From Siphonodentalium dalli (Eukaryota; Mollusca; Scaphopoda; Gadilida; Siphonodentaliidae): a stretch of DNA of 64,000 bases. Made by a program: the position numbers and the translations under genes. The notes beneath the pieces were generated by a model. It was not told the origin of the DNA. It did not search any database and was given only the letters and a program-made list of their open reading frames with translations. The DNA lies in contig CP136062.1 of NCBI GenBank assembly GCA_032622095.1, positions 201,339,959-201,403,958 of the forward strand. The letters are read 5' to 3'. Shown here piece after piece: positions 8,901 to 60,608 of the stretch (position 1 is the stretch's first letter; each line of letters begins with the position of its first letter).

Positions 8901-11900
8901 ACCATATTGGACCCATCCAGCCCCGTCCGCGCATTCAGTGCTACAGGTCAAAGTTCTGGAATATAGCATTCCACATTTGGAGCTTTTTAATACTCACGAA
9001 TTCCATAAATATGGAATTCAAAACTCCATATATGGAATTCTACTCCAGAACTTTCATCTGTAGCACTTAAACCGCGGAATGGTGCTGGATGGATCCAATA
9101 TGGTAGCGACTCAGTGATCTCGCTTATTGCCTGGGCCCAGGATTTGGCCGCATATATCTATATGGAGTTCAGAAACTTTACTTGCGCAACGACAAAGAAG
9201 GCATGCCACTTCTAAATCTGATAACTATGACGTTTACCACTCGATGCTCACCATGCAGTGTTTGAATATCCTGACTGTATTTTTTGAAAAATTTCGAACA
9301 GTAGTACGCATTCCAAGGTCAGACTTCATCGTTTTCAGATTTGATGGGAGTAGCGGCATGCATGCCTTCCTGGTGAATAACAATGTGTCGTGAATGATAG
9401 GGCCGAGGGAATCCAACATGTTTGTAACTGCTTATCATATATGTGTGAAAGCTCTCAGTAGCAGCATGTGTCATGCTGTCGTGTAAACCGTCGACTGTTA
9501 TTCTTAAGTAAACGTATAACTGGTATGCTTTATTGCTAGACATGATTTAACATATTACATACAAACACATATACACATATTAATATTTACAAACGTGGAT
9601 TAGGATGCCTACAATGGGAGACAGACACATTGGAATGACAACTCTATATGCCACCGAGTCCTTTGTACATACATAAAGTACATGTATATGCTGTCGTGTA
9701 AACCGTTGACTGTTATCCGGAAAGTACATATATACAGTGCATGCATAGTATGCACATGCCCCAGCAAATTCACACCCTGGCCTTTCGATAGTCATGCGGC
9801 AAAATGTCCAGCTACGCCCTACATCGCTATTTCTGATGTGTCACCATGACAATATCGAGATTGATGTTTCACTCTTGTCATGACGAGGATGACTCACCAA
9901 GTTGGTGAGGTCCTAATCAGGAAAGACCTTATTTTGCGGACACTTTATTTGATGTGGATGAAAATGACAAAAGGTGGCATCTAATTCAAAGCTATAGTGA
10001 CAAACACATTTATCATATTTTCTGCTTCATTCCTTGATTTAATTTTTTCGAGCAGTTCACATTTATCGGATTTACATCATAAAACTCCCCAATATTGAAC
10101 AAGAACCAATTAACCGTGCAGTTGTTCCTGATAATCCATTGCTCTCACACAACCAAACTTCTATTCAAGGTACGTGGTATCAACTTCTTAAGGAAGTTAC
10201 ACATTTGGGAGTAACAATGTGTAAAATTCTGCAACGAATTCAACGAACTTTTAGTCCAGGCACATTAGGCGTGAATGGGAAAAAGTAAGGAAATAAATCC
10301 GGGAAAGCTGATTTTTAAAATATTATTTAGGCCATAACATCGCGGATGCGTCGCGAAAAGTCCCCTAAAATCGCAGTTGAGCTTTCGGAGTTAACCAATT
10401 TTTTCCATAAAAAATAAAAACTTTTAAGTTTTTCACAATCATAGGAATAATGGGATGATATAACAATTTTTCAGCCGAAACATATACCAAATGTACTCAA
10501 TATTGTTCAATACACAATTCTCGAATCAGAGATACAAATTCAACGGGGGGATTTGAATGAATTTCGGTGATATGGATATAAAATAACATAATGACCCCAA
10601 AAAATGACGATTTTTTCAGACAAACTGTCCTATTCGATGTCAAATTTCTCGGGCTATTCATTACGAAGGCGCAAGCAATTTTGTTTTAAAAACTGCACAG
10701 ACATCACTCCTACTATATAATATGCGGGATTAGCAACTATACCTATGATAAGTGGTCAATACTTGTAAAAACATAACCCTACCCCCTAAACTGGCTCTCG
10801 TCACATTTTGCTCTTCCGCTAGTCCAAGTGCTTGTTGTAGAAAACACACCAACTGTGAAAAGGGCAATACAAGCATGAAACTTGGCACATATGTTCATTA
10901 TACGCTACTGCTCATTTTCACATGTGGCGACATTTGCAACAGGCTCTTCTTGGCAACGGTTGCTAGGCAACTACCCGGCATCGGATTAATGCATATGACT
11001 GATATTATATGTGTTCTAACATACTAAACTACGTCGTGTAGCATGTTTATGGTGAACATATTTGTTGTCAGTTTTGACCTGACTGACAAATTACCATACT
11101 TCTTACTTACAAGGGGTGACGATTGCTAGGGACACACACACAATCTAAAAATGCACATATGACTGATATTATGGTAGCTTTAACAAACTAAACTACACCT
11201 AATAGCACTTTTATGTTGAAAACAATTAGAATAGTTGTTGTTAGTGTTGAGCTGGCTGAAAAAATACCATATAATTCTTACTTATATGAGTGGTAACTGT
11301 TGCCAGGGTCATACCCGAAATACAAAAATGCACATATGACTGATATTATGGTATTATTAACGTTTTTATGGTGAAAACAATTATAAATGTTGTTAGTGTG
11401 AGCCTAACCAGAATATGGGTATAATTATCCGTTATGCTCCATCAGTTTAGATATCGGGAATTCAAAGTGAGAGTTGAAAAGTTGTTGCTTATATTTAATA
11501 TGAGACATGGCCATAATAGTTATATAAGCCATAGACCCACACAGCTAGTTATATAATGTAAGTCACGGACCCACTCTATACTATATATGAAGAACATAGC
11601 TAGGGTCAGCCACCAATATGTTAGTCATGGCCCTAGCCTACAATAGTTAGGTTAGGAACCCAGGCACATACATTGTCACAGGACCCATGTCCATACATAT
11701 AGACTATGGACGTAGAATATGTATAGTCCATGAACCAGACCGCTTCATATAACCATACATGTATGGTATCTATGACCATGACCATGACACTGTTACATGG
11801 TGCAAATACCCAAGTGCCCACAGATAGACCATGTACTAAGATAACATAGACCAAGTCCGATGCACAATACATAAGTGCACCATTGATTCAGGAACCTATA

Positions 11901-14900: not shown

Positions 14901-17900
14901 CATTTGCGCAATTGTTATGTCAAACGCCAGGACTATTATATGGTATTTTTGTCTTTCAGACACTCAAAGCCATGGCGTACGTTTTAGGGGGTAGTGTTAT
15001 GTTTCCGGCTATAATATCTTAAGGATGGTGATGGTTCGATATATCTCATCACTTTCCTGTTTTGAACTAACCACTGTTCTAGTATAATGGTTCATATTTA
15101 GCTCATTGTCGTCTGAATATCTTTACTCGCCCTCTTTTGTTAGGAAAATTTTGAATCACCATGCGATTTATATGCTCTCTTCGCCAATAAATGTCATCAC
15201 AATTATGGAATATCGACTGTTAGTAAGCTCTAGCATCAATTACGCATATATATCGACACCTGCTTCATGATGGACGGGTATGTATGAAGATTGAGTCCAT
15301 AAAGTAGCCTACATATGACTGCATTCGCATATGGTCTAATGGAATTTCGTCAGAATTTGCACCATTACGAAAAATCATGATATCTCAAAAAGCTCAACTC
15401 GGATTCTAGGGGACTTTTGCCAAGTTGTTCATAAACATGTTCTTATTAATCCCTGAAATATTCAGCTTTCCCGGATTTTTTGCACTAGTGAAACCTAATG
15501 TGCCTGGACTATTTGCCTGGTTGACATGCAAAGATTTTTGAAGAACACATTGGACAATATGCAAAGTATCCTAATTGCATGTTGCGATTCATCGAGCTAA
15601 TTACTCACATAATATAGTTCTCTGTCCAATCGAGAGAGAATTCGTGAACGGTGTCCGCCCATGTTCCGCTGGGTATTTTGCTGTAAAGATAAACATATTT
15701 GGTGTCTATTTTATTATCTATTTTATCGAATGCATTCTACACCCTTGTTGCGTGGGGCTGACGAAATGCCTGGTGCAATCAAGAAGTAATTGAAGAACCA
15801 CGGTGGCCATGGCGGAAGTGGGAAGTAATCAGGTCCATTTGCAACATCCTGTCAATTCATTATTACTCAAGGGTGTTGCGAATATAAGGCTTCCACGCAC
15901 CGCCCGTCATCAAATTTGGAGAAGAAAAGTAGAACAGTTAGAGAGATAAGTTAGAGAGAGTTGGAAAGTCAGTAGCGGTTAGGTAGCTTTCACGTTCAGT
16001 ATTATGTTATGCCATGGCTGTCTAATCCAGCTACGCCCGTAGGGATCATATCCCATCAGTACAAACCCTGGGAACTTTTTGATGATGTGACAGTTGATAC
16101 CTGTTCCTTAAAGGCACGTGAGGCCTTAATTGTCGAAAATATTCATATTTGTTCCAAACACCGTAAACAGAAAAACATTAAAACGCATACAGTTTCGTTC
16201 ATATATACCATGACCATCGCGTAAACAGCATGTTATCATAAATACCTACTATATTTTACCTAAGCAAGAGCCTGATTGGGGTATAGAGGACAGCACAATG
16301 CTACTGGCTAATCACACACACATGGCATAAACGCTCTTTATTAGTTCCATATCAGGAATTCACCAACAAAGAACGCTCTTTATGTTTACCATCATAATAT
16401 AAACAAACACAAGAAAAATAACTTTTTATGCTTTTGTTTACATAACAATGGTTAAACATATGAGAATAACATACTGTTTATGCGATATTTCTTATTTATA
16501 TACGGACAAAGTCTGCCTACATTTTGATGTTCTTTCTGTTTGTGACTGTTTTTGACGGGTGGAAATATTTTCACAGGATACCCACCGCCAAGGCCAACCG
16601 TACCTTTAATAATGCACGAAGTTGCACGATTTAAGGGGTTTCCACATCTGAGCTATTACACATTGGACCTACATTGAAAACTACCTAATTGTCGATCTAA
16701 GTACACCACATGAAGGTGTCTATGCTATCTGAAGACCATATCAAGTATATTCATTAACTCTTTACCCAACAGAAGGGCCCTGTGCCAATGCATTCTCTTA
16801 TATATGCGAGTCGACCATAGGTCGCCTCGCATATATAAGAGAATGCATTGGCTTAACACATTAAAAATTATAAAATTGTTAAAGAATGTAAGAAAAAATG
16901 GTAAAAAGTGTTTTAGGCCAATGCATTCTCTTATATATTCGAGGCGACCTATGGTCGACTCGCATATATAAGAGAATGCATTGGCACAGGGCATAACTGT
17001 AACTATCACAATGTGGTCAAGGAGCCGGTTCCAATGATATCCATATTTGTATGGTTCTATTGAGACAGACCGAACATATTTTGGGCTGTTGAAGCTTTAT
17101 TTGGCCGGTTTTGGCCGGTTTTGTTGGGTAAAGGGTTAATAATAATAACAATGTCAAAAGATGACTTAGTCATATTTTAGAAGGGAAATTGTTGGGAAGA
17201 GCGTTCTTAACAAGTATACAAAATTATTGGCAATGAATAACTGCCATAAAAAGTACATGATCTGAACTAGTGAAGGGCTCGAATGAGTATTTATTTGCGA
17301 GAAACACTGCTTCAAGACTGTTAACAGAATGTTAGTTTGTGTTGGGAAATCGTAAGCATCCATTTTGCATGCAATGTTACCTTCAAGAACCAGCACAATT
17401 AATATAAATGTTGATATGCAGATTTTTCAGGTAGCAATCGACTGTAATAGGCCACAGTTTTAGAGATAGCTGGTCAGTTGGTTATTTGGCTATGGACATA
17501 TGACCTAAAATATTATGTTAGTTGTTGCAAAATGGATGCTTACATTTTTCCAGCACAAACTAACATTCTTTTAGCAGTCTTGAAGCAGTATTGTTCTCTA
17601 TTAAATTGTCATTCGAGTCTTTCACAAATGATCATGTGCTATAATCATATATAATCATCAAGATTTGCCTGATGTCCCCCCCCCCCCCCCCCCCTCCTGC
17701 ATCAATATATATTTCCCCTGATTTTCGTAAACTAACTAATAAAATGGCTGCACTGCCTAATTTATTCTTACTGCATTTCAAACTCATGGTGCTATACCCT
17801 GAATGCCCGGATGTTTGTTCGATCTGTTATAACTGTTATCATCTAAATGAATGCCTGAGGATTTGATGATCAAATGTCTGTCTGTTATATTACAGATTAT

Positions 17901-20900: not shown

Positions 20901-23900
20901 GTGCCAGCAAAATGACTTTACATTATGTCCCACTAATACACAGAGAGTACCTACAGTTTTGTTTGAATAACGAAATATCTCATGAGCGTCTGGAAAGAAA
21001 TATCGGCTCCAATCGCAAGTGAAAATTCGATATTTCTTTTCAGACACGAATGAGTTGTTTCAGGTATTCAAAGTAGGTATTCTTTTTATTATATGCACCT
21101 TATTAAGCTCAAAGTACAGCAATTTGAAAAAAATATTCGGGAAGAATACTTCCTAATAATCATAAGTGCACAATTACCTAGATAAAGCAACAAGACTCGC
21201 GCACAGAAATGAAACACGGACTCGAAACTAACAAGTCTCCGTGTCGAAATATATAAATCCCACGTCACCGGTCACAACTGCATGGTGCGTGATAAGTTGC
21301 GGCTAGCCAACGGAAACCCCGAATACCGGACGACACTTGCATGATCAATCCATAATTAGGTGTCTGTTTCAACTTTAAGCGCGTGTGATTTTCTTCGGAA
21401 AGTTGTTCGCTTGTTATTGACTTATTAAAGTATAAGATATAACTCTAATTTCGAATGAGGTTAGGGGTTATAACCGATAATTTTGCAGATAATTTACTAT
21501 ATCGCGCGGTTATGGAATTTGTCTTCAAATTTTTCGCTCGCGTAAACCACCCCGTCGACCCGGCATGCATGCTACAATGAAATATAACGAAACCTACAGT
21601 GAAAATACGACACCGTATTTCACTGTGGCGTCTAAGAGATACATACCAAGATAATTTCCCGCTATTTTATATAGGCAAGCATATAATAAATATGACCTCT
21701 TCTGTACTTGTATATTATCTGTCGTCTGCTTATTTTTCATAGAAAGCCCTCATACCCTTCCAGATGAATAATATACCATTCCAATGTATTCGTTTATAAT
21801 TGAGCGGGAGAATCCATTTAGCATAGCAAATCATAACGAGCATTTGTCTCACTTCTGCGTGAAAAGTGCAAAACAAGATAAGGAAAATATCTGCGCAATG
21901 TTTTTCATTGTATATAGAGCCTTACTAGCTGGTGGGCCCGACTTCGTCCGGGCTATTCGTCCGGACTATATAGGGATTTCTTTGCCAGAAACATGACTAT
22001 ATGAGCGTATATGAGCAAGGACACGGTCGCATGCGAAATTGGACCCGATTTGATCTTGAATTGACCATTTTGAAGGTCAAGGTCAGGTCGGGGTCACGAT
22101 TTGACCCGTCCAAAACACTCTCCGGACAAAAGTACCCCTAGGTATCAAATTTCGTCGAAATCCGTCCGTTTTACCCGATTTGACCTTGAATTGACCATTT
22201 TGAAGGTCAAGTTGGGGTTACGATTTGTCCCGTCCAAAACACTCCCCGGACAAAATTAACCTTAGGTATCAAATTTCGTCGAAATCCGTCCGTTTTACCC
22301 GATTTGACATTGAATTGACCATTTTGAAGGTCAAGGTCAGGTCGGGGTCACGATTTGACCCGTCCAAAACACTCCCCGGACAAAAGTACCACAAGGTATC
22401 AAATTTCGTCGAAATCCGTCGGGCAGTTTTCCCGGCCATTGCTAATAAACAGACAGACAGAAAGACAGACAAACAGACAAACAGACAGAAGTCCCAAAAT
22501 ATATATTAGATGTCGTGCACATGTATTTATCTCATACCTCCTAAATTGCGTAGACATAATTTATATGTTCAAAGAAGCAGAAATAAAATGTATTTGGAGC
22601 AGACGCTTGGCACCATATATAACACCACGAAGCACTATGATATGTATGCTTATTCGTACCTCTTGCTTCCATCATGTCGATCTCGCCTCCTGTCGGCCAG
22701 CCGCCGTACATTTCCTTCTTTGGTAGGATCCATATTGCTGAATTGCAGAATAAAATGTAAAAAGGGTTATTAAACAAGAGGTTACACCATAGGTGTTGGT
22801 ATATCCGTACATAGTGCCAAATGTTAAAACACAAACAGAATGGAACTCACATTTTAACCCTTTACCCAACAAACCGGCCAAAAACGGCCAAATAAAGCTG
22901 CAACAGCCTAAATTATCTTGGGTCTGTCTCAATAAAACCATACAAATATGGATATCATTGGAACCGGCTCATTGACCACATTGTGATGGTTACAGTTATG
23001 CCATGTGCCAATGCATTCTCTTATATATGCGAGTCGACCATAGGTCGCCTCGCATATATAAGAGAATGCATTTTTTAAAAACTTTTTACCATTTTTTCTT
23101 ACATTCTTTAACAATTTTATAATTTTTAATGTGTTAAGCCAATGCATTCTCTTATATATGCGAGGCGACCTATGGTCGACTCGCATATATAAGAGAATGC
23201 ATTGGCACAGGGCCGTTCTGTTGGGTAAAGGGTTAAAGCAAATAAAATGGAAAATGCGAACATTACCATTTGACATTTCATTGATAGCTAGGCTAGTGAA
23301 AGCCTTACAGATGGTTAACACCCATATGAATTGTTATTGCGATCCTATAACCCATGACTGATAACCTGCGCAGACGAACATAAATCCATGATATCGAGAT
23401 AAATGAAAAAGATTAACCCCAGAACAGAAAACAAAACGCGAACAACGTGTTGGCCCCTTTGTTGAAAGATCTCCTGATGGCTAACCTCCATAAACAAAAT
23501 TCAGATCTGGTAAGCAATTGCTGAGATATCGTTGTGTGGACGGACAGACACCCATCATTTCCAGAGAAACACAGAAGGATAACTCTAGAACTGGAAACAC
23601 GAACAGCATTATTGAGCCCTCTTTTGATATGCCTACGAACCGACATATCAAATTGCATTGTTATATCAACTAAACCATGGCTGATATATACAATCAATAA
23701 TGTCCAAATAAACAAAGAAAAGATAACGCAGGAAAGAAACACGTCATAAGTCCTTCTTTTGGCAGCACTTTTTATGACAAACCTCGAGATCTATACAAAA
23801 TTTAATTGAAATCGGTTGAAACATGCATGCATAGATGGCGGAGATATCTGCGCGAATGGACTGGGGGGGGGGGGAATTAGTGTCAGATAAACAAAGAACA

Positions 23901-29900: not shown

Positions 29901-32900
29901 CTCGTTCCCATATGATTCACAATTGTTCATAGTATCCCTGACCATTCTGTTAGAGGAAATATACTTTTATTTGCTTTAAAGCCACTGCCTACAACCATAT
30001 ATTATCATTAATTTGGATCCTGCATGGGCTCCATGCCAATTTTAAAGTCGGATCCGGATTTCAGGGATGGATGTTGTTCTTAAATTCTGCCTATTATCAA
30101 GTATACTCACCGGTCGCAGGAACAAGTTGTCGTTCTTGAAGTATAAGTTACGCTCAAGGGGAGTATACACTTGGAATTCTTCGTTCTACAAATAAACGAA
30201 AACCCGGGACACAGATGTAATAAGAGCAGCCATTATTAAATATTTTTAAATATATATATTCTTGAGTGTTTATAATGATATATAATGGCTTTTCTTCGAA
30301 TCTTTCGGAAATATCTCTAAAATGACCAATTATGAAAATTAATGGTACTTTCCTTAAAAGCATCATTTTGCCCCACGATGCAGTATCATTATTTTGCTAA
30401 ATCCGCAGGACCCACCAACTTCATAGCAAATTAGCACGCAGGACCGCTTGACCATGCAGTCGATCTGTTACAATATAGATCGCAGGATCTGACGAATAAA
30501 TACAGTAGTAGACTCGTAGATATATAGGAAAATCGATTGGAAGCTTACAGGGATGTTGTGACATGGGGCGGGTGTTCTCCTATTGTGGTAAGTATTTTCA
30601 ACAATTGGAAATTTCACGCCTGACACAACATATTTTTCTGGTTAACAGTTTTTGACTCGAATGATCATCACCAGTTGGAAATTGTCCAACCCTGATGGGG
30701 CCAACAGTTTGGAAGTTTGATATATTAGAAGATCGAGGCCCCCAACAAATACAATCTAGACACGTTCCTGATTTGAAGGTTTCACATGTACAGCATCATC
30801 TGCTAGGAAATATGTATTCATGGTTCTATAAGTAGGTCCTTTTTTTTAATCACGATTGCCTAATTACACAGTTACAGGAAAATATTTTACACAGATTCTT
30901 TGTTGACCGGAAAGACATTTTGAAGTGATATCATTTACAGCACCGAAGAGAAAATGGAACATTTTTCCCGCAACCAGTTATGTTTTGGATGGACACCGCT
31001 GACAAGGGTCGTGACTAGATGGCATCTGTTTGTGGAGTGTTCAAAAGTTCCAACTGCATGCCTTTGAACTATACCCAAATACCCAGGTTCGGGGAATTCC
31101 ACAAATCAAACCAAACCCTTGGGTTTGTAATATTCAACCTGGTACATCTAGTTATGTTGTTTGAAATTTCAATGAAAGTAGGAAAATATTCGACTTTTTG
31201 TAAAAATAAATAAAAAATTAATAAGATAAACCCGCACATGTCGCTTTCGTCCTGTCCTTGTCCCTGACGACATTTCGAACGTTCTGATCGGTATAATCAA
31301 ATCGACCTGATTTGTTTCGACAGTTTATGATTTGTTAATACTATCCAACAAACTTTAACATTGTACATACTAAGAGGACGGAGGCATGGTCACCCTCTCA
31401 AAATGTTCAACGGTTGGAAATATCATGCATGTAAAAACATCGGTTGAAACTCTCATACCGAAATTGCTCTGATAGTTTGATTTGACAACCAATATACATA
31501 GTGTTAAATTAAATGTTTTAGGCCAAATTTCGGTTTTGAGTGAAAGCGAAATGGCCATAATTTTGAAAATGTTCATCCATGCATAAGGGAGATATAGGTT
31601 GGAATTTTCCACCATTTGAAAATCTTGATGTATACGTATAGCAGTTGGAAATTCCAACTCATAGGGGAATAGGAGGGTTGCATTTCGAAAATTCTACTTC
31701 GGACATTCCCAGCGGACACATTCTAGCCACGACATGACAATCGGAAGATCATTGTGTATTGTGTACACAATATGTTCTTCCTCCTCTCCACCTTTTGTAA
31801 TACTTTAAATTTCTCGATATCATGCTATTTTGATCAGCGAATAATGCATTATTATAAGGCTTGGGTAAACATGATTCTGACATAACCGTGACCGACTGAT
31901 GTTATATATATCGACGACACAATTATTACAAGAATCTTGTAAATGGGTGTTTGAATAACATAGAAACCGCGGGAGAGGGTGATGACGTTTATGGGTTTTT
32001 TGGAGAACACATGTGTGCATGTATGAGATTCCTGAAATGTTTGTTTAATCCTACTGACCTTTCCGCCATACATAGAAATCACAGTTTTCCAATCGTCACC
32101 TAACCGACTCCGCCCGGTAAATGTGTCTCGGAATATAATGGATCGAAACCGAGCTGACAGTTGTATCGTCGTGTCCGGAACTGAAAGTATACATGCACTA
32201 CATGTATCCAGGGCAACAAAAGAGAATGCTGAGAATCTAGTCATGCTACCTACCGCCGTATAATATGTTGACAACGGAGTTGGTATGGAACCTGCACCTG
32301 TGCAAATGGCCAAATACACTGAAACTGCATGGTGATCATGAACATCCAAGATGGCTGCTGGCGGCCAAGTGTTTCATAGAAATTCGGAAATATTACATAG
32401 CTCCCATATAAGAAGAATAGGAGGCTCGTTGGATCCACTTCTAAAAATAGAATCTTTGGGTCTAAAATTGGTTGTACTAAAATATTCCCAAAACTTCCAA
32501 AATATCAAAACCCAAAAAAAAATTCAAAACTTCCAAAATTAATTTTTTCCAAAAAATTTCAAAAACCCAAAACTTCCAAAAAAAATTTCAAAATCCCCAA
32601 ATTTCAAAAAAAGAAAAAATTTCAAAACCCCCCAAAATTATTTCTCTTAAAAAAAAGTTTAAATAAAAATTTTATAACGAGTTTTCGGTTTCTGATAATA
32701 TCGATATTAAAATGTCGAATGTTAAATTATTTGCGTGTAATATCTTTCGTTATTTTTTTTGTTCAACCAATGTTTCAATGTATTTATTAATCGATGTTTA
32801 GAAATAGCTTTATTGGACATTGTGACCATCGGTATGAATGCATACATTCCAGTGTTTATCGGACGCAGTTCATACATATATAATTGTCATACCTGAAAAT

Positions 32901-34668
32901 AGACACCATTACTCTTACATAAATAATAAAGAGCGTTTATTCTTTACACTCTCTATCCCAGATGAAGTTATTGAGTATATGACAGACATGTATTACCGTG
33001 AATTATTGGAAGTATTGAGATGTACTATCTTGAATCACGAGCGGACAACCCCCCAGAATGAATTGTCATATTCGATGGAACATATTATGTACACGTAATC
33101 ACACACGACATTGTGGGTAACAATGTGTCTTTCACACCTTGCTTTACCAAATGAATTCTATTATATTCCCGTTCACAGTTATATGCTATTCAGAAAACAT
33201 ATCGTGTTAATGTCTGAGCAGAATTAGTTGTTTAACGGGTTAGTATCAATTAAGGTTGATAAACTGTGTCATTGTTAGCATTAACACGATAATTAGTTAT
33301 CCAAAACATGCATACATAATACATCCAGGTCGTGAGACACTCAATTATAGAAATTGCTTCGGTGTCATTGTTATAACAACATTACGTAATAACCACTTAT
33401 CACTCCATTCACACTTACGATCATTTTGTATACCAAAACTCCAGTTAGCACCGATGATGTAACATTATATCACTGCTATTGTATCAATTGATAGGTTCAG
33501 ACAAGTTCGATGTTTAGAAAATAGATAATGTGCAGGTGTTCACTTGACAAGAGATTTTGTACACTCAATCACAGACCAAGGAGAAGTACTGTGTAGACAG
33601 GTCTTGTCGGTAAGAGAGTCAGACGAGAAGTGAAGACTCGGCTATTAAAACATAGTAATGCGATAGCGAACATCAAACGAGTCTGCGCACGCATATCTGT
33701 CAAAGGATACAATGGCAGTCATTGGTCAATTTATCCCCGGTGTCAGCTCAGTACAATAGCAGTCATTGGTCAATTTATCCCCGGTGTCAGCTCAGTACAC
33801 AATCGGCACGAAGCCGGAGGTCATAATTACTCTTACGAATGAAGAGCGTTGAACATATACGAAATTATTACACGAATGAACTGAAATTTATATTTCACAT
33901 CTTACCAACAACAGATACAGACATAGTCATAGTGTTATACTATCTTACATGTACCCATGCTATGACATCATTCGAAGGGGCAATACACTCAAGGAGTTAA
34001 AGTGACACGAAACAAGGGACGTGATGTAATATTGGTGTTTGAATCTTAAAGGAACACAAGACACTCTAAAGGGACACTCATTATGAATGAATGTTAACAA
34101 TACAAGCGCACGAATGAAGAGCGTTGAACATATACGAAATTACTACACGGCGGCGGCGGCGGCATTGCAGTATTTTACTGCGGGGTCCGCCGGCGGCGGA
34201 CCCCGGCGGCGGCGAGAGCTTTCCGATGAATGGCAACAAGCCATATTTCCGACTAACTCCTGAAAAGTTACCTATAATTCTGCTGTGGTTAAGCAGTCCA
34301 TTATTTAGTGCATAACTGTATCATCATGTCAGTCACCAGGTTACACATATCTATATAATAGAGTGTTCATATTGAAATCACTCATAATTGCATTGACATT
34401 TGGATAGGTAGGTTGTATTGTAGCTAATGTGATAAATTTGTATCCAGTACAAACAACACTAAGAGACGTTGTGAACGACAGCCTGAACTAGTTAACTAGT
34501 CCACCACGTTTCCCTTGTTTCTGTTCTATATAAATATAGGTGCATAGAAGAACGCTCGATTTCACTGATTATATAGGAAAATGAAGTATCAATGTGAAGA
34601 GTGTTTAAGTGTCTATGCTTGGCAAGATAGTTTGAAGCGTCATATCAAAGTTAAACACACACCTTCAG

Positions 34669-34702
<34 letters not shown>

Positions 34703-37700
34703 GTATCATCAGCCGCAACAACAACAACACCAACAACAACAACAACAACAACAGTATCATCAGCCACATCAGCCACAACAACAACAACAACAACAACATT
34801 ATCATCAGCCACAACAACAACAACAACAACACCAACAACAACAACAACAACACCACCACCAACAACAACAACAACAACAACCACAACAACAACAGCCACC
34901 AAGCGACATAACATCCTGCTTTGATGATCCAATGGCCAATGTCCATGAAGATTTTATTTTCAAGCATCCATTCACGGCATGTGTAAGTGGACCGACATCT
35001 TGTGGTAAGACATACTTCGTGAAAACCTTACTACAAAAGTCTGCCTCAAAAATATCACCCGCACCTGACAGAATAATATGGTTTTATAAATATTGGCAGC
35101 CCCTATATGACGAATTAAAGTATACCGTCACCCCTCAGGTCAACTTTATACGAGGAATACCAGCAAACTTGGATTCTCTTATCAACCCCCGGTATAAAAA
35201 TCTAGTTATACTCGATGACTTGATGCAAACTTCATCAAAAGACCAGAGAGTTAATGATTTGCATTCCGAAGGAAGTCACCATTTGAACTTATCTTTGATA
35301 AGTTTGAACCAGAATTTCTACTACAACAAAGATCCAACGCAACGACGAAATTGTCAATATTTGGTATTGTTCAATAACCCAATCGACAAGGGATTAATTT
35401 CAACATTATCAAGACAGATGTATCCTGAATGTCCTCAGCGTATGGTTCGAGAGTTTTCGGAAGCGACGAGTGAACCGTACGGTTACCTACTGGTGGATTT
35501 AAAAGCCGCAACACCGGACACATTACGTCTGCGACAGAATGTACTAAAAGAGGACACGAACCAACATAGGGGTGAATGGAATGGCATGAAATATAATCTC
35601 CAAAAAGACAGAGAACACCCAGATGAACAGAATGGGATGAAAAAACATACAAAAGACACTGAGACCCAGGGTCAACAGAATGCGATGAAATACGATGACA
35701 GAGAACTCCCCGGTCAACAGAAGGGCATAACATATAATTATATTGTGCCCCAGGGTCAACATAATGACTATACTAACGACATACGGCCACCTGGTGAGCT
35801 CGATGAAATTAATAAGAAGAACCATCAAAACAGAGACATTCGAGAAGACATGTCGTACCCTTGTAATGAATGCGGGCTTTTGTTCGCAGATCATTATGAT
35901 GTTCAGAGACACGTAAAAAACTGGTGTCAAGAAAATAAGTTAAAACGAAAATTAACTGAGGACCCGGATGAACACGGAGTTATGTCCGAGACAAAAACAA
36001 CTCTCTTCGGAGAAGATACAGATGAAGATGAACGGGGAACGCTATCAGATTCAAAAGATGGTAATGTCGTCGGTAGTAGAACGGTATTCGGTCTTAAGAA
36101 AGCTGCGCGATGTGTCAACGAGATGGACACATTCAAAAGTATGATGAAACGCGTCACCAATGATGTGAAAGAAGAAGAGAGCATTTCGGGAGATGAGAGC
36201 ATGTCGGGAAAAGAGGATACCATCGACACAGAGTTTGCTCTGTTTCGCAAAAGTTATAGACGATTAATAGAATACCAGTATCGATTGAAAACATCACCCA
36301 TACATAACACGATCATGAAGAAAATGGTCAAACTGACCAAACGCGGATATAATAATGAATGGGCTGCAGATGAAGCGATGAGAAAATTCAAGAAACTCTT
36401 AGAAGTAAATCTAAAGGTCGAAGATTCAGACAATGATTAAATTTCAATAAACTTCATCAACATGTTATTCTCGTCTTCGTTATATATCTATAAGTGGGGA
36501 GGGGGGTTTGTATAGCGAGAATGCTCCTTTAATATTCACACACCAATATTACATAACGTCCCTTACCTCGTGTCACTTTAACATTCCACACACCGTGTGT
36601 GCATTATCCCCCTTTAAGTATGTCATAGCATGGGTACATGTAAGATAATATAACACTATGACTATGTCTGTATCTGTTGTTGGTAAGATGTGAAATATAA
36701 ATTTCAGTTCATTCGTGTAGTAATTTCGTATATGTTCAACGCTCTTCATTCGTGCGCTTGTATTGTTAACATTCATTCATAATGAGTGTCCCTTTAGAGT
36801 GTCTTGTGTTCCTTTAAGATTCAAACACCAATATTACATCACGTCCCTTGTTTCGTGTCACTTTAACTCCTTGAGTGTATTGCCCCTTCGAATGATGTCA
36901 TAGCATGGGTACATGTAAGATAGTATAACACTATGACTATGTCTGTATCTGTTGTTGGTAAGATGTGAAATATAAATTTCAGTTCATTCGTGTAATAATT
37001 TCGTATATGTTCAACGCTCTTCATTCGTAAGAGTAATTATGACCTCCGGCTTCGTGCCGATTGTGTACTGAGCTGACACCGGGGATAAATTGACCAATGA
37101 CTGCTATTGTACTGAGCTGACACCGGGGATAAATTGACCAATGACTGCCATTGTATCCTTTGACAGATATGCGTGCGCAGACTCGTTTGATGTTCGCTAT
37201 CGCATTACTATGTTTTAATAGCCGAGTCTTCACTTCTCGTCTGACTCTCTTACCGACAAGACCTGTCTACACAGTACTTCTCCTTGGTCTGTGATTGAGT
37301 GTACAAAATCTCTTGTCAAGTGAACACCTGCACATTATCTATTTTCTAAACATCGAACTTGTCTGAACCTATCAATTGATACAATAGCAGTGATATAATG
37401 TTACATCATCGGTGCTAACTGGAGTTTTGGTATACAAAATGATCGTAAGTGTGAATGGAGTGATAAGTGGTTATAACGTAATGTTGTTATAACAATGACA
37501 CCGAAGCAATTTCTATAATTGAGTGTCTCACGACCTGGATGTATTATGTATGCATGTTTTGGATAACTAATTATCGTGTTAATGCTAACAATGACACAGT
37601 TTATCAACCTTAATTGATACTAACCCGTTAAACAACTAATTCTGCTCAGACATTAACACGATATGTTTTCTGAATAGCATATAACTGTGAACGGGAATAT

Positions 37701-40700
37701 AATAGAATTCATTTGGTAAAGCAAGGTGTGAAAGACACATTGTTACCCACAATGTCGTGTGTGATTACGTGTACATAATATGTTCCATCGAATATGACAA
37801 TTCATTCTGGGGGGTTGTCCGCTCGTGATTCAAGATAGTACATCTCAATACTTCCAATAATTCACGGTAATACATGTCTGTCATATACTCAATAACTTCA
37901 TCTGGGATAGAGAGTGTAAAGAATAAACGCTCTTTATTATTTATGTAAGAGTAATGGTGTCTATTTTCAGGTATGACAATTATATATGTATGAACTGCGT
38001 CCGATAAACACTGGAATGTATGCATTCATACCGATGGTCACAATGTCCAATAAAGCTATTTCTAAACATCGATTAATAAATACATTGAAACATTGTTCGA
38101 ACAAAAAAAATAACGAAAGATATTACACGCAAATAATTTAACATTCGACATTTTAATATCGAGATTATCAGAAACCGAAAACTCGTTATAAATTTTTTAT
38201 TTAAACTTTTTTTTAAGAGAAATAATTTTGGGGGGTTTTGAAATTTTTTCTTTTTTTGAAATTTGGGGATTTTGAAATTTTTTTTGGAAGTTTTGGGTTT
38301 TTGAAATTTTTTGGAAAAAATAAATTTTGGAAGTTTTGAATTTTTTTTTGGGTTTTGATATTTTGGAAGTTTTGGGAATATTTTAGTACAACCAATTTTA
38401 GACCCAAAGATTCTATTTTTAGAAGTGGATCCAACGAGCCTCCTATTCTTCTCATATAGAGGTCACCCCGAAGGTCCATGCGTAGGTTGGTGACAATTGG
38501 ACGAGGGATGTGGTCTGCATATGTTTAGTGTGTGTCGAAGGATTTTTTCATTCAAAGAGTAAAATCAAAGATGGCTGCCGGTGGCCATGTTTTTCATTGA
38601 AAATCGTTTAAACATGTCTGTAAATAAAACATTCAAAACATTTCTGCAACAAATGTGGGTTGTAGGGTGAGCCGATGGATTCAAATGTGAAATCAAAGAT
38701 GGCTGCTGGCGGCCATGTTTTAACGAATTTTGGAAACATTATTTGGCTCCCATCTAGATCTATAGATGTCAATCTGAACATCCATATGAAGTTTGGTGGC
38801 GATGAGGATAAGGGATGTGGCCTGTATAGGGTGTGCCGATGGAAATTGTTGACGGATGTACAGACGGACGCACGGACGCCAACCCATGGCAATGAAAGTG
38901 TATAAATTCTACTAGTATAGTAGGAAGAGTAACGTTGATCCCTCCCTTATTTGTATAGAAATGAAAATTATGAAATTACCGTTGTTTCTCATTCATACGG
39001 CACGGATTCGCTGACCGGTGCGAATATTTAACTGTGAATGGCTTGAGGCATATAGACATACTGTAGTTTAAGTCTAATAACACCAAACAACTAATTCCCA
39101 CAGCTGCTGCGGGTCGTATGGTTCTGCCCAAGAACCAAACAACCCTACCCTAAAGAACACAATGAGTCCAGATAGTTTTCAACATGTAATTCTGAGCTAC
39201 ATTTATGGTAAGCGGAAAATATCTTCAGGATTTTTGTTACTAATTATGTGTCAAATCGGACTGAATATATAGATTGTGTGGACGGCAAATGAGAACTCGG
39301 TAATCAGTTTGTTTTTTCTTATAGAGAAAGCGATTAATTTTATGGGCAGGGCAGAACAACATGGATGTCCGGAACAGATTAATCGGTCTACGCGTCGACC
39401 TACCAGCGATCCATTGCCCCTCGTCGAGAACCTTGTATCTTGAGTCCCGGTAAGACAGGACCTTGTAGTTTAGTTTATCCCCGGCCCTGAGATTGGTGTT
39501 CAGAGTCCCGCCATAGTTGTAGATTTCTGAAAGTGACGGAATTTAACACTTAGTCACTCATAGCTGCAATGGGGGAACAATACGTAATATATTGTATATA
39601 ATATTATATCAGCACCAAAAGTAAGTCCCCTCTGATATTTATGAGAATATTTGAAAATAACTTGTTTCGATTAAGTGTATGTCTATAACGCGCGTAGTAA
39701 ATTTGTCTGAAAACTGTCCGGTTATAACGCATATATTTTCTGGAAAAGTTACCGACACCGATTAAGTTCATCGACGTATAACCTTAGTGGCTAATTAAAG
39801 GTACGGTTGGCCTTGGCGGTGGGTATCCTGTGAAAATATTTCTACCGCCACAAACAGAAAGAACATCAAAATGTAGACAGACTTTGTCCGTATACAAATA
39901 AGAAATATCGCATAAACAGTATGTTATTGTCAAATGTTTGACCATTGTTATGTAAACAAAAGCATAAAAAGTAACTTTTCTGGTGTTTGTTTATATTATG
40001 ATAGTAAACATAAAGAGCGTTCTTTGTTGGTGAATTCCGGATATGGAACTAATAAAGAGCGTAGCAGTAGCATTGTGCAGTCTTCTGTAACACAATCAGG
40101 CTCTTGCTTAGGTAAAATATAGTAAATCTTTATGATAACATGCTGTTTATGCGATGGTCATGGTATATATGAACGAAACTGTATGCGTTTTAATGTTTTT
40201 CTGTTTACGGTGATTGGAACAAATATGAATATTTTCGACAACTAAGGCCTCACGTGCCTTTAAGCGGCAACCAATCGTATTACAGTATTTTGAGACTTGA
40301 CAGCTTGTGACTAGATTATTATATCTTCGGAAATAAGAGTCATAATAGAAATTATGCATGTTTGATTAAATAAGAGCAAACTTGTCTATACTAATAACAT
40401 ACAGAGAGTTTTAGTCATAAATCATCGACTCAAGACTTTTCATTTGAAATACTGACTATGATATTAGGGAACAATGAATAATTTCGTCAACATGGCCAAG
40501 TCGTGAGTCATACCAACGACATTAGCTTACCTACCTGGATGCAAGACGAATGTCTGTATCGTGTTGAATGTGATTTGGTTGTTAACGCTATAAAGGAAAA
40601 TGGTTGGTTCCTCTCTTGCTGAAATCAGAAAATGATCCTCGTTAATTGGAATGGGGAAATAGGCAGGCGGTATTCCAGTCTGTTCTCCCGATTTTCTCCC

Positions 40701-40846: not shown

Positions 40847-43800
40847 GTTATACTTAGTAATGCTTCTGTATTGTGTCATATTCCAGATATCAAAATACAC
40901 GCGAAATGTACCACTGTTAAACTATGTATATGCATGCGCTAAAACAAATCAACCTCTTAAGGGTCAGACGCACGTTTTGCCAAAATTTCCTGGTATTAAA
41001 AAAGGACTTTCTCAAAATCTACCAGGAATTTCTTTGTGAAATTTGGTACAAGCGATTATTATGACACAATATTTAAGAACCATCGACCCATTGGATATCA
41101 TATTCTCATTTACTTCACTTTTATGGAATGAAAAATCACTGTTTTCCGGTACCAATAACTTCTGTAAAATAGATTTTTTCAAAAGTGCAGTTCTTATATC
41201 TGAAGATCATGAGAGGTGACTTAATTTTTCTTGATTCGTGAAAACATGGCTCATCATACGAGATTTATTATCTGGCATAAAATGTTGTATCCGCAGCGAC
41301 GGAACATATTCCGACTGGTTCTCCTTGTCCCATGGATAAATATTATCACCTCTGTGGTACAAAATATATGCAGAAGATCTCCTCCATATTATTCAAAAAT
41401 CAAAATTGGGCCTTCGCATCCACTCACTGAATTGTTCATCTCCCACCCAAGCCGATGATATGATGCTTCTCTCTCTATCCCGCCCAGGTCTTATTGGCTT
41501 ATATGAATTATGCATTGAATTCAGTAATAAATGGCGCTTCAGTTATAATTCATCGAAAACCGTCATAATGGGTTTTCAATGAATCAAAACAAAAGGCCGA
41601 TAAATGTGCAAGATCATGGCCATTTGGATCATCCTTTCTCGGAGAAGTTGACTCCTATACTCACCTGGGAATTCTGCTTTCCAAATCCTATTTCAATAAC
41701 AAATTTGTCGATGCCATATGCACAAAATTAAGGGGGGCATATTTCGGCCTCTCCGATGTTGGCCTATACCCTGGTTGTATCTCTCTTCAAAGTTCATACA
41801 AACTTTACAGAACAATAGTCATCCCTTCAGGGTTGTATGACAGTGAACTTATCTGGAACCTAAACACAACTCAAATAGATAAGCTTGAGAAGGCCCACAG
41901 AGTTTGCATCAAGCATATCCAAGGTTTTCCGACGAGGACCCGAACAGTTATTGCACAAGGCTGTCTAGGCTGTTCCTCGCTAGAATCGTGGATCGATCGT
42001 CGGAAACTCTCAATGCTTGGCGCTTTCTGTGGGCCAAATCACGAGTTGGCATCAAAACAGTTATTCCTACTATACGACGTTTGTATGATTTCATATCTGG
42101 TCTGTCAACGGATGAAACATCTTTTATACATGACATATGGCGCATTCTATGCAAATATAATATGGAACATCACCTTATTGAATATGCTAATTCCAATGAA
42201 TTTCCATCGCCCGTGGTGTGGAAACGCTTGGTAAGGACAGCGGTAAAGGAGTTAGATGAACTTGACTGGTATAATCGTATCTCCGGCGACTCCTCTTTAA
42301 CAGCATTCCGTACCATTCACCCCACGCTACGAACGATCGGTATATGGAAACTATGCTCACAATTTCCGGAGGAAGAAATTTGTATTCCTCTTGATCGGTC
42401 GCATAATCGCACATACAGCTTTCGGACAAAATGATACATGCAAACATTGTTTAGCGACCTACTCATGTGTAGTACAACATACCTTGTTAGATTGCCCGTC
42501 ATTGCTACATATTCGGAATGACATGTGGTACCACATCATTGACAATTATGGCATTGACTGTTTCCTCTACCGAGATCAAATACCCCGTTTGCAGCTACTG
42601 TCTGCCCTTCTGGGATCGCCACCTAGAGATCTCGCTCTACTCTCAGATAACCACTCTAATCTGTCTCGCTTGCTCGTTGGGACATCTGCATTTATGTGGA
42701 AACGGTTTCATTTTGACAATGGTTAACTAAAGTGATCAGCACTCTTTCGGAGTAGAATAGCGTTAATTTTCTATTAATTCATTTACTGTTATATATTTGG
42801 TAAATTAACTCTGTCACATGCAGCATTGGCCAATTCAGTACCATGCATCCTTCCGCCAAATATGTATATATTTCAAATTACCCATATTTCCTACATGTAT
42901 ACACTGTTTACAGTTTACGTACTATACACTTCACATAGCCTCACTAAGCTCACTTCAACGGACATCCATGAATCTTAGTATTCTCCCGGATGCATGATCA
43001 CACAAACCATACCCATGTGTATTCTCCCGGATGCATGATAACACAAGCCACACCCATGTGTAATTGTATGTGTGTATACATATGTAGGCGTAAGAATATA
43101 TATATATATATATATATATACATGTGTATAGGTGTATACATATGCATGTGTGTGTGTATATATATATATATATCTATTATATATTTTGGAAGATCTGTGT
43201 GTGTGTGTGTGTGTGTGTGCGCGATGAACTCGAAAACGACCGAGCCGATTTCGATGAAACTTGGTATGTGGTGGTATTTTCGACCGGGAATGGGCATAGG
43301 CATATTAATTTTCAGATCCGAGCTCAACTTTTCACGTGCCGAGGTCAAATATGTTTTTACGCTGTGTTAAGCCCCGGTTCCACATCCCCGATTTTCCACC
43401 CCGAATGTTCCCGAATGACTCCCGAATCATAATTTTGCAAAAATCGTGGAGTAAGTTCGGGACGAGTCGGTACAGTGAATTTTTACCCCCGAACATGATC
43501 GGGGATATCGGTGCTATCGGGGTCGATTCGGGACGATTCTGGGCCCGCTCCCGACAGTTTTGAAATGTTCAAAACTATCGGGAACCAAGCCGAATCGCTC
43601 CCGATTTGTCAATCATCGGGCGAAATTCGGGAGCAATTCGGCACCTATTCGGGAGTAGTCGGCAGTATTCGGCAATATTCGGGTGGATATTCTGGAGTAG
43701 TCGGCAGTATTCGGTAGCTTATTCCCGAATTCGCGATGTGTGGCTGCTTTTATACTGATATCCGGTGTATCTGCAACATTCGGCCTCGATTCGGGACGTT

Positions 43801-57660: not shown

Positions 57661-60608
57661 ATTATTATTGTTGTTTTTTCCATAAGGTCACTCTCTTGGA
57701 GGTGTATAAATGGTGTATTGGCGGCTGAACCACAGCCGTAGCAATACTCACTAGACAGTATGCATTGATGTTACTTTGCGTAGTATTCTGGCAGTGCCAA
57801 GAAGTGCAGTTTTCTGTAGGTGAGCAACATCTATGGAGGTAGGAAGTAGGGCTAGCCATTTGCTAATATTGTTGCTCACTGCCCCAGTTGCACCAATCAC
57901 TATAGGTATGATGGAAGTTTTCATTTGCCACATACGACTCACCTCTATTTGTAGGTCAATATACTTCCTGACCTTTTCTGTTTCTTTCTGGGTGACATTA
58001 TAGTCACTTGGGATCGAAACATCTATGAGCAGACACGTGTTGTCGTCCCTGTTCTTGACGATTATGTCTGGTCTGCTACACGAGATGGTTCGGTCAGTGT
58101 GAACCTGTGTGTCTCAAATGACTGTAATGTTGTCTCTAGATCTTACATTCTGAGGAGAGTGTTCATACCATTTATCTGCAGATTGCATGTTATAATGCTT
58201 ACAGATGGACCAATGAACATATCGCCCAACGTTATTATGGCGTTCAAGGTATTCTGAACTCGCTAATCTTGGACAAGCAGATATAATATGTTCTCTACTG
58301 TCTCAGGGTGCTGGTGGCATACTCTACATGTAGGATCAATATTCTTCCGAAGGATCTTGTTTTGGTAGTATCGGGTACTAATGACCTGATCTTGAGCAGC
58401 AATAAGAAGGGACTCGGTCTGAGCCTTCAAGCCTGCATTCTGCAACCATCTGAATGTTGCCGTGCTATCATACTCTTGTTCGTTGATTTTTCTGGCGTGT
58501 TGTCCGTGCATTCGTTTCAGTTCATATCGCTCTGTCCGTTTGTCTTTCATTTTTTTCTTCAGTTCTAGTTTCAACTTTTTGGCCTCCTCCGTTTATTGGT
58601 TCGTGTCTCGATACCAAATTCTGTTCTGAACTGCAGTGCCTGTTTAGTTATGGAATATTTCTTTTTGTTATTTTCATGTCGTTGAAGGCATTTTATGTAC
58701 ACATCACTGCTATTCCTGATATACCTATCAAGACCAACCACTGCCACTTTATAGGCACTCGCCAACTCAATTAAACCTCTGCCACCATATTTTCGTGGTA
58801 AGTATATCCTGTCCACATCTGCCTTACTGTCATGCATGCCACTGGCTGTTAATAACTTTCTTGTTTTCTGTCTAATTGTGTTATTTCGTTCATCCTCCAG
58901 TCTATAACACCGAAGCTGTAACTGATTACTGGGACTGCTAAGCTATTATAGCCATGATCTTATATTTGGCATTCAAATTCCGATTTCAAAATCTGTCGGA
59001 CTCTTCTTTTGTATTCTGCTATTATTTTGCTTTTCATTTTTTGCATGTTCTACTCCATCATATTCGTCAACTCCAAGATATTTATACACTTCTGTCTGGT
59101 CCAGTTCCTTTATGGGTGCCCTTCTCGTCTAATGTAAAATCACCTTTTGTTTCAATTTTACCTTTAACACAAGTCAGTTTGGCACATTTGTCATAGCCGA
59201 ATTCCATTCTTATATCATTACTATAAGATCTCACAACGTCGAGTTGTTGCTCCAATTGATGTTCGTTGCACCCATATAGTTTTATATCATCCATATACAG
59301 CAGGTGTGACAGTTTTGTCTCACCCTGTTGCCCCCCGATGGAGTACCCAGTATTCAACGAGTTGATCTCAGAGCTCATTGGGAAAAAGCTTATGCAAAAC
59401 AGGAGGGGAGACAAAGAATCTCCTTGGAAGATGCCATTTCTAATGCGAATGTCACCTGATACAATCTCACCCTCGCTGTGTGTCAAATGCATTGTTGTTT
59501 GCCATTTTTTCATGACATTGTCCAGGAAATTTATCATGGTTGAATTAGCTTTATAAATCTTGAGTGACTGCACGATCCAGCTATGAGGAACACTATCAAA
59601 GGCCTTTCTATAGTCGATCCATGCGGTACTCAAGTCTCTCTTTGTGTTGCGGCAGTGCTCCATCACCATTTTGTTAAGGAGGAGCTGGTCCTTGCAGCCC
59701 ATGCTTCCTTTACAACAGCCCTTCTGCTCCTTTGGAATAAGGTTGTTATGGGATAGATGTTTGTACAATCTCTCAGTTAGAACGGATGTGAGAATTTTGT
59801 AGAGAGTAGGTAAGCAGGTGATGGGTCGATAATTTTTCGGGTTTGATGTGTCACTGGTTTTGGAGAGCAAAAATGTGACACATTTTAATAGCCAGTCTGG
59901 TGATTCGTCGGGTTTGGTAATCAAGTCACTGAACGATCTTGCAATGTGTGGATGGCAAGTTGTAAACTGCTTCAACCAATAATTTTGGATATTGTCTATT
60001 CCAGCTGCTTTCCAGTTGTGCGTTTTGCTGATAGCATACGAGACTTCTTCTTGCGTAATATCATGTCAGTACTGTTCATTAATATCCGCATTTCTCTCAA
60101 TCTCCTTTGTGATCCATTCAGCTTCAGCATTATGTGTCTCGTTCCTCTCCCATATACCCTTCCAGAATGTTTCTAGTTCTACTTTGTCGGGAGGCATTGT
60201 AATTGTTATTTTAGTTTCATTCATATCTCTATAAAACTTCTTTGTGTTATTAGCAAATGTCTTGTTCTGTCCAAACTGCTTTGACCTTCTTTCGTATCTA
60301 CGTATTCGCTGTGACTTTGCCTGGATTTTTTGTTTCAGTGTTTCCATCACTTCTTCCATTGTTCTGTCGCTATTAATTACATATTTTCTGAGTATCTTCC
60401 TTTTTTTATGTTCATTTAATTTCTCATTTTTCAACTCAGTTAGTGTTGATAAATCTGCTCGAAATGAATCTATTTTTTTCTTTATTCGCACCTTCCACTT
60501 TGGTTCTTGATTTTGTGTTTGCTTGTGTGGTCGAACCTTTGCGTCCACCTTCTCAGATATGAGTTGTGCGGCAATGTACAGCACAGTGTTTATCTCTGTT
60601 AAGCTCAT
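57657..60608 (-). pseudogene. R2-like non-LTR retrotransposon ORF with restriction-like endonuclease, broken
   Basis: Reading from 60608: a basic, coiled-coil-like N-terminus; an in-frame TGA at 60066-60068; then the RT with NYRPITCLPTLYK, AWIDYRKAFDSVPHSW, GIFQGDSLSPLLF and YMDD (59286-59297). A frameshift near 59100 and others near 59040 and 58880 lead to LPRKYGGRGLIEL (~58780). One more near 58570 leads to the zinc knuckle CRVCHQHPETVENI (~58300) and RHNNVGRYVHW. Then, past a TGA at 58114-58116, comes the restriction-like endonuclease with RPDIIV (~58060-58074) and DVSIPSDY. The frame ends at 57751, with an AAC/AAT-rich tail near 57660. The C-terminal endonuclease, not an APE, places it with R2/NeSL-type elements. 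It cannot encode an intact protein. Confidence 0.9.

Follow-up and report, generated by a model that had tools for sequence, protein, structure and literature searches.

Parvoviruses have T-shaped terminal hairpins, inverted-dimer forms and a unit of 4–5 kb, and foldback elements such as Galileo have very long inverted repeats around a short centre. For Polintons, protein priming at the ends is the accepted mode of replication. Vertebrate Polintons (Mavericks) that were called intact span 12.7–24.6 kb, with 7–8 core genes and terminal inverted repeats (TIRs) of 46–1,447 bp (PMC8097293). Among gene-poor Polintons, nine elements without the major capsid protein are also without the protease and the ATPase (PMC4028283). 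Some adintoviruses have zinc-finger regulator genes ('Ziftr') and FtsK/HerA packaging ATPases (preprint PMC11071296). Bidnaviruses are small linear DNAs with Polinton-derived ends, some of them multi-segment, that carry PolB and parvovirus-like genes (PMC4061559, PMC11071296). The subject of this study is an element of 6,042 bp with Polinton-type ends and a single ATPase gene. It lies in a stretch of 64,000 nucleotides, here called the window, from the scaphopod Siphonodentalium dalli (assembly GCA_032622095.1, 2.23 Gb in nine contigs; C2:201339959-201403958). The unit belongs to a separate, abundant family, distinct from the Polinton described below, and the intact form of this family is a near-perfect palindrome with two divergent gene copies.

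The window element occupies positions 32411–38452, begins with AGAAGAATAG and ends with CTATTCTTCT. The initial annotation had described a 6-bp duplication, AG..CT termini and 1,739-bp arms without net indels, and these features were confirmed. The target-site duplication (TSD) CATATA stands at 32405–32410 and is repeated, as a perfect 6-bp match, at 38453–38458. The left TIR (32411–34149, +) and the right TIR (36714–38452, −) are 1,739 bp each and differ by 6 mismatches and no indels (99.7%), with 2,564 bp in between. For an inverted repeat of 1.7 kb at 99.7% within a 6-bp duplication, a chance origin is excluded. The central 2,564 bp had been said to encode only one protein, which was confirmed as well; the only open reading frame (ORF) longer than 150 aa in the element is a 619-aa ORF at 34581–36440 (+). 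The ORF list and Pfam showed no PolB or rve integrase ORF in the element, and the ORF list showed none for a capsid or a protease.

The promoter segment of the ATPase gene (34187–34580, +), which is common to ATPase-bearing and ATPase-less members of the family, gave at least 128 matches from the best 40 of 2,813 candidates in the assembly, with many head-to-head pairs. Ten matching places were examined, each as two adjacent 10-kb stretches. All ten had a mirror-image build of arm, gene, hairpin, gene and arm, with repeats that extend from the end to the centre. The nine palindromes with both ends in view were 8,267–10,890 bp long and had a perfect 6-bp TSD (9/9). An eleventh palindrome, C5:167.25M, was symmetric over the 9.5 kb examined, and its ends fall outside that stretch. 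The flanks beyond the TSD were not inverted copies of each other, save for one 21-bp match at 1/9 palindromes, so the symmetry is a property of the element and not of the locus. The view that a one-gene unit with very long TIRs is the native form was therefore not borne out, as 10/10 other places were palindromes with a gene in each arm. Polymerase-, integrase- and capsid-type ORFs were absent among the ORFs of at least 100–120 aa in the ten elements, and because of this such genes are judged to be lacking family-wide, not just in the window.

A search of the assembly for PolB (PF03175) gave 69 scored loci, the best of 1,596 candidates. By hand count, 58 of these have frames of 803–1,178 aa, mostly about 952 aa (one with a stop), and 11 have frames of 1,098–1,330 aa and are of another type. 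One locus of the first class was examined. It holds a Polinton of 16,464 bp at C1:205517602-205534065, with the TSD CATATA and TIRs that are 96.5% alike. PolB, an rve plus chromo integrase, TBP and PC4 scored above their Pfam cut-offs. One strand carries a 593-aa ORF with no Pfam match, PolB, a PC4-like ORF and a TBP-like ORF, while the other carries a protease-like ORF, the rve integrase with its chromo domain, unmatched ORFs and a 221-aa P-loop ATPase. The protease-like ORF, of 148 aa, matched Peptidase_C5 at 20.0 bits (cut-off 21.3), and the Pfam matches of the 221-aa ATPase were likewise below cut-off. The Polinton is apparently complete, with capsid genes expected among its unmatched ORFs. 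The PC4-like and TBP-like proteins (L031:8619-9272 and 9284-9808; PF00352, E 3e-32) are, to our knowledge, unusual for a Polinton.

The TIR of this Polinton is 82% identical to that of the window element over 1.24 kb, and its tip shows constant and variable blocks in the same arrangement. The ATPase of the window is 31% identical to the 221-aa ATPase over 206 aa (E 1e-29), with Walker A and B conserved. Both further copies and a full-length relative, which the initial annotation had proposed to look for, were thus present in the assembly as palindromes and a 16.5-kb Polinton. Its idea of a non-autonomous satellite riding on a fuller Polinton is probably right, given that the assembly contains an apparently complete Polinton that shares these ends and that the ORF is open in most scored copies (64/71). 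Dependence of the satellites on a Polinton appears well supported by the shared ends, which comprise about 1.2 kb of end sequence and 6-bp TSDs. We also considered a segmented Polinton with PolB, integrase and capsid on separate palindromes. This was set aside, as the one PolB locus of the matching class examined, the C1 Polinton, has PolB and integrase together and is not palindromic. A second Polinton lineage, whose PolB is about 1,300 aa long and which has an ATPase of its own (177 aa), was seen at L033 (C8:142632001-142642000). The 10 kb examined of this long-PolB locus had no match to the satellite-type TIR.

A perfect 6-bp TSD and the same kind of ends were found in 11/11 units with both ends seen (nine palindromes, the Polinton and the window element), two of which begin with AGAAGATAG, shorter by one A. 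Near the tip, two hypervariable blocks at arm positions 11–14 and 21–25 surround a constant CTCGTT (32421–32435 in the window, with blocks at 32421–32424 and 32431–32435). The blocks vary among elements and are the same at both ends of one element in 10/11 cases (window, Polinton and 8/9 palindromes), the exception being C5:151.87M, whose ends differ in the second block. These blocks look barcode-like, and are present also in the nine palindromes (L011–L014, L017–L030) and in the Polinton (L031:602, L032:7065).

Arms were compared over the outer 1 kb in 10 elements including the window, with C2:199.64M omitted because its right end was out of view. The two arms of the same element differed by 0–0.7% in 9/10 elements and formed sister pairs in the tree; arms of different elements differed by 3–11%. 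Since the difference within elements is far below that between elements, arms seem to become identical again with roughly every round of spread. We infer that one half is copied from the other via fold-back, in which case arm identity would be expected.

The GC-rich centre closed into a stem in 10/10 elements; in C1:209.75M the base stem was only 8 bp, followed by a side hairpin. A pair of lateral hairpins, each 7 bp or longer, giving a T shape like that of parvovirus ends, was present in 6/10 centres as judged by eye from the folds. The central hairpin of C8:53.9M had a z of −16.8. Eight additional loci were inspected; the limits of the centre could be set at 4, and 2 of these centres were T-shaped. 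The same two-base stem mismatch (GCAGTA against GCGATA) occurred in 5/6 ATPase-less elements folded, despite their near-identical arms, and the GCAGTA side always adjoined the GGGGTCC-type lateral hairpin (degenerate in C5:151.87M). The shared mismatch is weak evidence, because the ATPase-less elements may have a recent common ancestry. The centre of C5:167.25M is a simple hairpin unrelated to the other centres, so palindromy is independent of any one centre sequence. A remnant of the GC-rich central hairpin was located in the window at 34150–34213 by the folding of centres.

The left arm of intact copies reaches the centre by way of the second gene. In the window the arm ends at 34149 and the centre begins at 34150, and comparison with other copies identified this junction (34149–34150) as a deletion that took away the left gene. 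The left TIR is the sole remainder of the left arm, and the right TIR is the outer portion of a complete right arm. Twenty-five ATPase copies, the window included, had no scored partner. Eight were inspected upstream: the second gene arm was present in 5, the left gene was wholly absent in 1, and 2 were without its promoter-side part. The gene-losing copies had break points other than that of the window. Among the best 40 of 2,163 candidate loci the window junction was spanned whole by the window alone; a partial-query match at 79% crossed it at a place inside the compound locus C2:199.64M. As the whole junction is confined to the window among the scored loci and other deletions break elsewhere, the single-gene form is an individual decay product of the palindrome. 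The possibility that the missing genes were simply deleted here therefore applies to the second ATPase copy. It does not apply to the polymerase, integrase and capsid genes, which are absent in the ten elements.

The 619-aa protein comprises, in order, a C2H2 finger, a Gln-rich stretch, an A32/FtsK-type ATPase, a second finger and a C-terminal domain. The first finger (aa 3–26; 34587–34658, +) and the second (aa 426–446; 35856–35918, +) are C2H2 matches under the Pfam cut-off, none reaching its own threshold (zf-C2H2, 24.2 bits against 25.2). The ATPase domain (aa 122–322; 34944–35546, +) has the Walker A motif GPTSCGKT and the Walker B motif ILDD, and Pox_A32 matched the protein at 25.1 bits (cut-off 22.8). 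The second finger starts a module common with the ATPase-less satellites, and protein comparison showed the C-terminal domain (35985–36437, +) to be common with a 200-aa satellite protein. A TATA-like TATATAA at 34527, within the promoter segment, lies upstream of the ORF, and an AATAAA polyadenylation signal (36446–36451, +) lies just 3' of its stop. A single-sequence AlphaFold2 model of the protein had a mean predicted local distance difference test score of 32.5. A PDB sequence search with the protein returned zinc-finger matches only, and PHROGs gave three weak, uninformative matches.

Satellite genes were of two types. Type A has the ATPase ORF, which was full length (566–592 aa) in 6/8 arms examined and shortened to 417 and 465 aa in the other two. 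Type B has no ATPase, and its 189–200-aa C2H2 protein was open in the arms of six elements listed. The C-terminal domain is common to type B and both type A versions; the most different pair was 26% identical over 120 aa (E 6e-8, from one pairwise comparison with no correction for composition). Because of this common domain, the window ORF is interpreted from protein comparison as a fusion that links a finger, the Gln-rich stretch and the ATPase to the type B module of finger and C-terminal domain. Other ORFs in the palindromes were antisense, minisatellite or TIR frames, and the two scanned had no Pfam match. A minisatellite that translates into FAHLLIFLLICSF-like repeats is present in the arms of type B elements (L013, L015–L018, L027–L030). 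The number of its repeats is probably behind a large part of the gaps between arms.

The ATPase ORF was without a stop in 64/71 scored copies (best 71 of 11,783 candidates), with at least 23 divergent pairs. The type B ORF was without a stop in 144/150 scored copies (best 150 of 3,424 candidates), with at least 50 divergent pairs; all these counts are lower bounds. In the ATPase region of two hand-picked pairs, pooled, 10/19 changes were non-synonymous compared with about 80% expected (P 0.007); the ratios of non-synonymous to synonymous change (pN/pS) were scattered. For type B, pN/pS was about 0.55–0.65 in 5/15 pairs, those with the divergent 189-aa copy. Purifying selection on the satellite genes is likely, although weakly measured.

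We consider it likely that the window element is a one-arm-deleted copy of a palindromic Polinton satellite that is mobilised by a Polinton, copied by fold-back, and equipped with an ATPase fusion that may direct packaging. The Polinton polymerase would copy the satellite from its ends. The displaced self-complementary strand would then fold back at the central hairpin and be copied, which would keep the arms identical; a palindrome strand that folds and completes itself would thus explain arm identity. Self-complementary parvovirus vectors have a replication advantage, and a self-folding palindrome could gain one in the same manner. The Polinton integrase, which is implicated by the shared ends and the 6-bp duplications, would then integrate this product and generate the 6-bp TSD. 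Binding to satellite DNA, at the end or at the hairpin, is the probable activity of the finger protein; its gene is the one constant among the satellites, which makes DNA binding its probable basic role. In type A, a finger protein coupled to a packaging motor would steer satellite DNA into helper particles. Phage satellites redirect helper packaging, and by this analogy the ATPase fusion may do so as well, but this is the least certain step and falls somewhat short of probable. In the window copy a deletion joined the left arm to the centre. The wider proposal is a lineage of self-complementary Polinton satellite viruses with palindromic genomes, a parvovirus-like central hairpin and fold-back copying, some with a captured packaging motor fused to a DNA-binding protein that draws helper particles. 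This we regard as tentative and rather doubtful.

Several points weigh against this account. The replication mode, the fold-back copying and the steering of packaging are steps that we infer. The window and Polinton TIRs are only 82% alike and one Polinton of its class was examined, so the actual helper may be another Polinton family. No capsid profile matched in the C1 Polinton. ATPase-less satellites are also abundant, and the ATPase is therefore dispensable for spread; in the ATPase copy at C7:50.0M, Pox_A32 reached 22.0 bits, just under the cut-off of 22.8. The scored copies were the best candidates, which favours open frames. Between ATPase copies pN/pS ranged from 0 to 1.07 in 34/36 pairs (two undefined), with pairs from within one element included. 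The other 10 type B pairs had 1–5 changes each, and 6 of them had non-synonymous changes only (1–3 each). The arms of C5:151.87M differ from each other by 6.5%. Lastly, C2:199.64M, whose right end was out of view, is a compound that has been rearranged and contains several copies of the gene. At this locus (C2:199640001-199660000; L015, L016) several type B palindromic units were seen in tandem and inverted order.

The ATPase-finger protein could instead serve the palindrome as a replication, segregation or anti-silencing factor, acting for example on the central hairpin, or it could restrain the helper in a dominant-negative manner. The protein common to all satellite types examined is a finger protein, mostly without an ATPase, so that the basic satellite function is likely to be DNA binding or regulation, and a T-shaped hairpin would readily serve as a target for a protein. 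A role outside packaging fits less well with an ATPase that is homologous along its length to the packaging-type Polinton ATPase and has kept Walker A and B. No helicase family scored above cut-off in the 619-aa ORF (PF00910, 11.9 bits against 21.5). We felt that this alternative was a serious possibility, if not the expected one.

A further alternative concerns the mode of copying, in which a nickase would act on the T-shaped hairpin in a parvovirus-like rolling hairpin instead of protein priming. The stem with two lateral hairpins and a half-element of 4.1–5.4 kb agree with this, as does the stem mismatch kept in the ATPase-less elements, which recent common ancestry may explain. However, the satellite proteins and 12 Polinton ORFs scanned gave no HUH nuclease match and no helicase above cut-off (PF00910, 11.9 and 17.6 bits against 21.5). 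In another satellite type, moreover, the centre is an unrelated, simple hairpin. A rolling hairpin is considered unlikely.

The element might also be a passive internal-deletion derivative of a Polinton that lost most genes, leaving the ATPase as a functionless relic. Deletion did remove a gene from the window copy, other copies show one-arm losses that break at varied points, and the selection estimates are noisy. A relic of this Polinton would hardly have an ATPase just 31% identical to that of the end-sharing element, together with a finger fusion, and no homologue of the finger protein was found by blastp among ORFs of 90 aa or more in L031–L033 (the C1 Polinton and the long-PolB locus). 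Most scored copies are open and the palindrome is the common form among the copies examined. The passive relic is largely refuted already and has little probability left. Least probable of all is that host repair made the palindromes by inverted duplication of single-gene elements, with the window form ancestral: template switching can yield inverted duplications, but the palindromes have transposon termini and TSDs at their ends in 9/9 cases and at many loci, there are two unrelated kinds of centre, and the single-gene forms have individual break points.

Some other features of the window were recorded. A 146-bp partial copy (95%) of the inner-arm segment 36883–37028 lies at 36608–36753 and extends into the right arm. 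The arms of the element also contain an 86-aa ORF whose Pfam matches are all sub-threshold. A tRNA scan and an Rfam scan found nothing. Scans of viral contig collections and tblastn against a phage collection found no relatives of the window element, and a pattern scan of a genome contig collection gave two matches in bacterial metagenome-assembled genomes. Outside the element, a dispersed repeat of 0.5 kb flanks it as two copies in opposite orientation (16107–16622 and 39782–40264, about 95% in long blocks). Another transposon is perhaps marked by inverted repeats of about 390 bp (16746–17139 and 22853–23244), which contain internal palindromes. Long ORFs lie at 59082–60608 (−) and 41569–42726 (+), and the segment 59082–60065 has, by eye, the look of a reverse transcriptase of the long interspersed nuclear element type.

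The palindromes and the Polinton form a candidate helper-satellite pair within one genome, with dozens of scored satellite genes and PolB genes of the matching class. Palindromes as near-perfect as these document, in a natural setting, how folding and self-copying of a linear replicon may proceed, and arm divergence provides a clock for each insertion. An ATPase-finger fusion that is open in many copies, next to abundant ATPase-less relatives, lets one ask whether the satellites of eukaryotic virus-like elements direct packaging in the way of phage satellites.

Gene-poor Polintons, foldback elements, parvovirus hairpins and adintovirus zinc-finger genes are already known. A palindromic, protein-coding Polinton satellite was not recognised in the literature, as covered by titles and the beginnings of abstracts; most subscription papers and Repbase were outside this scope, and this is no proof of absence. 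Polintons/Mavericks, as described in the accessible part of PMC8097293, resemble the satellites in the 6-bp TSD, the AG..CT-type termini, the long TIRs and a homologue of the packaging ATPase. Unlike the vertebrate elements described there, the satellites have one gene family and repeats that reach the centre. Gene-poor Polintons (PMC4028283) likewise have Polinton ends and an incomplete gene set, but the satellite gene is not that of the helper, being a finger protein or a fusion with a divergent ATPase, and the order is palindromic. Adintoviruses and Polinton-like animal viruses share zinc-finger genes and FtsK/HerA packaging ATPases with the satellites; a palindromic genome and an ATPase-finger fusion are absent from the description in the available text of PMC11071296. 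Foldback elements such as Galileo (PMC4168063) have very long inverted repeats and a short centre, whereas the satellite repeats bear open coding genes and have Polinton-type ends. Bidnaviruses are also small linear DNAs with Polinton-derived ends, and differ in having PolB and parvovirus-like genes and repeats that form no parvovirus hairpins, so far as PMC4061559 and PMC11071296 describe them in the parts available. Parvoviruses share the T-shaped hairpin, the inverted-dimer form and the 4–5-kb unit with the satellites, in which no HUH replication protein was found and the hairpin sits midway along an integrated dimer. With phage satellites the genes are unrelated, and the proposed common logic would be a packaging component of the satellite's own.

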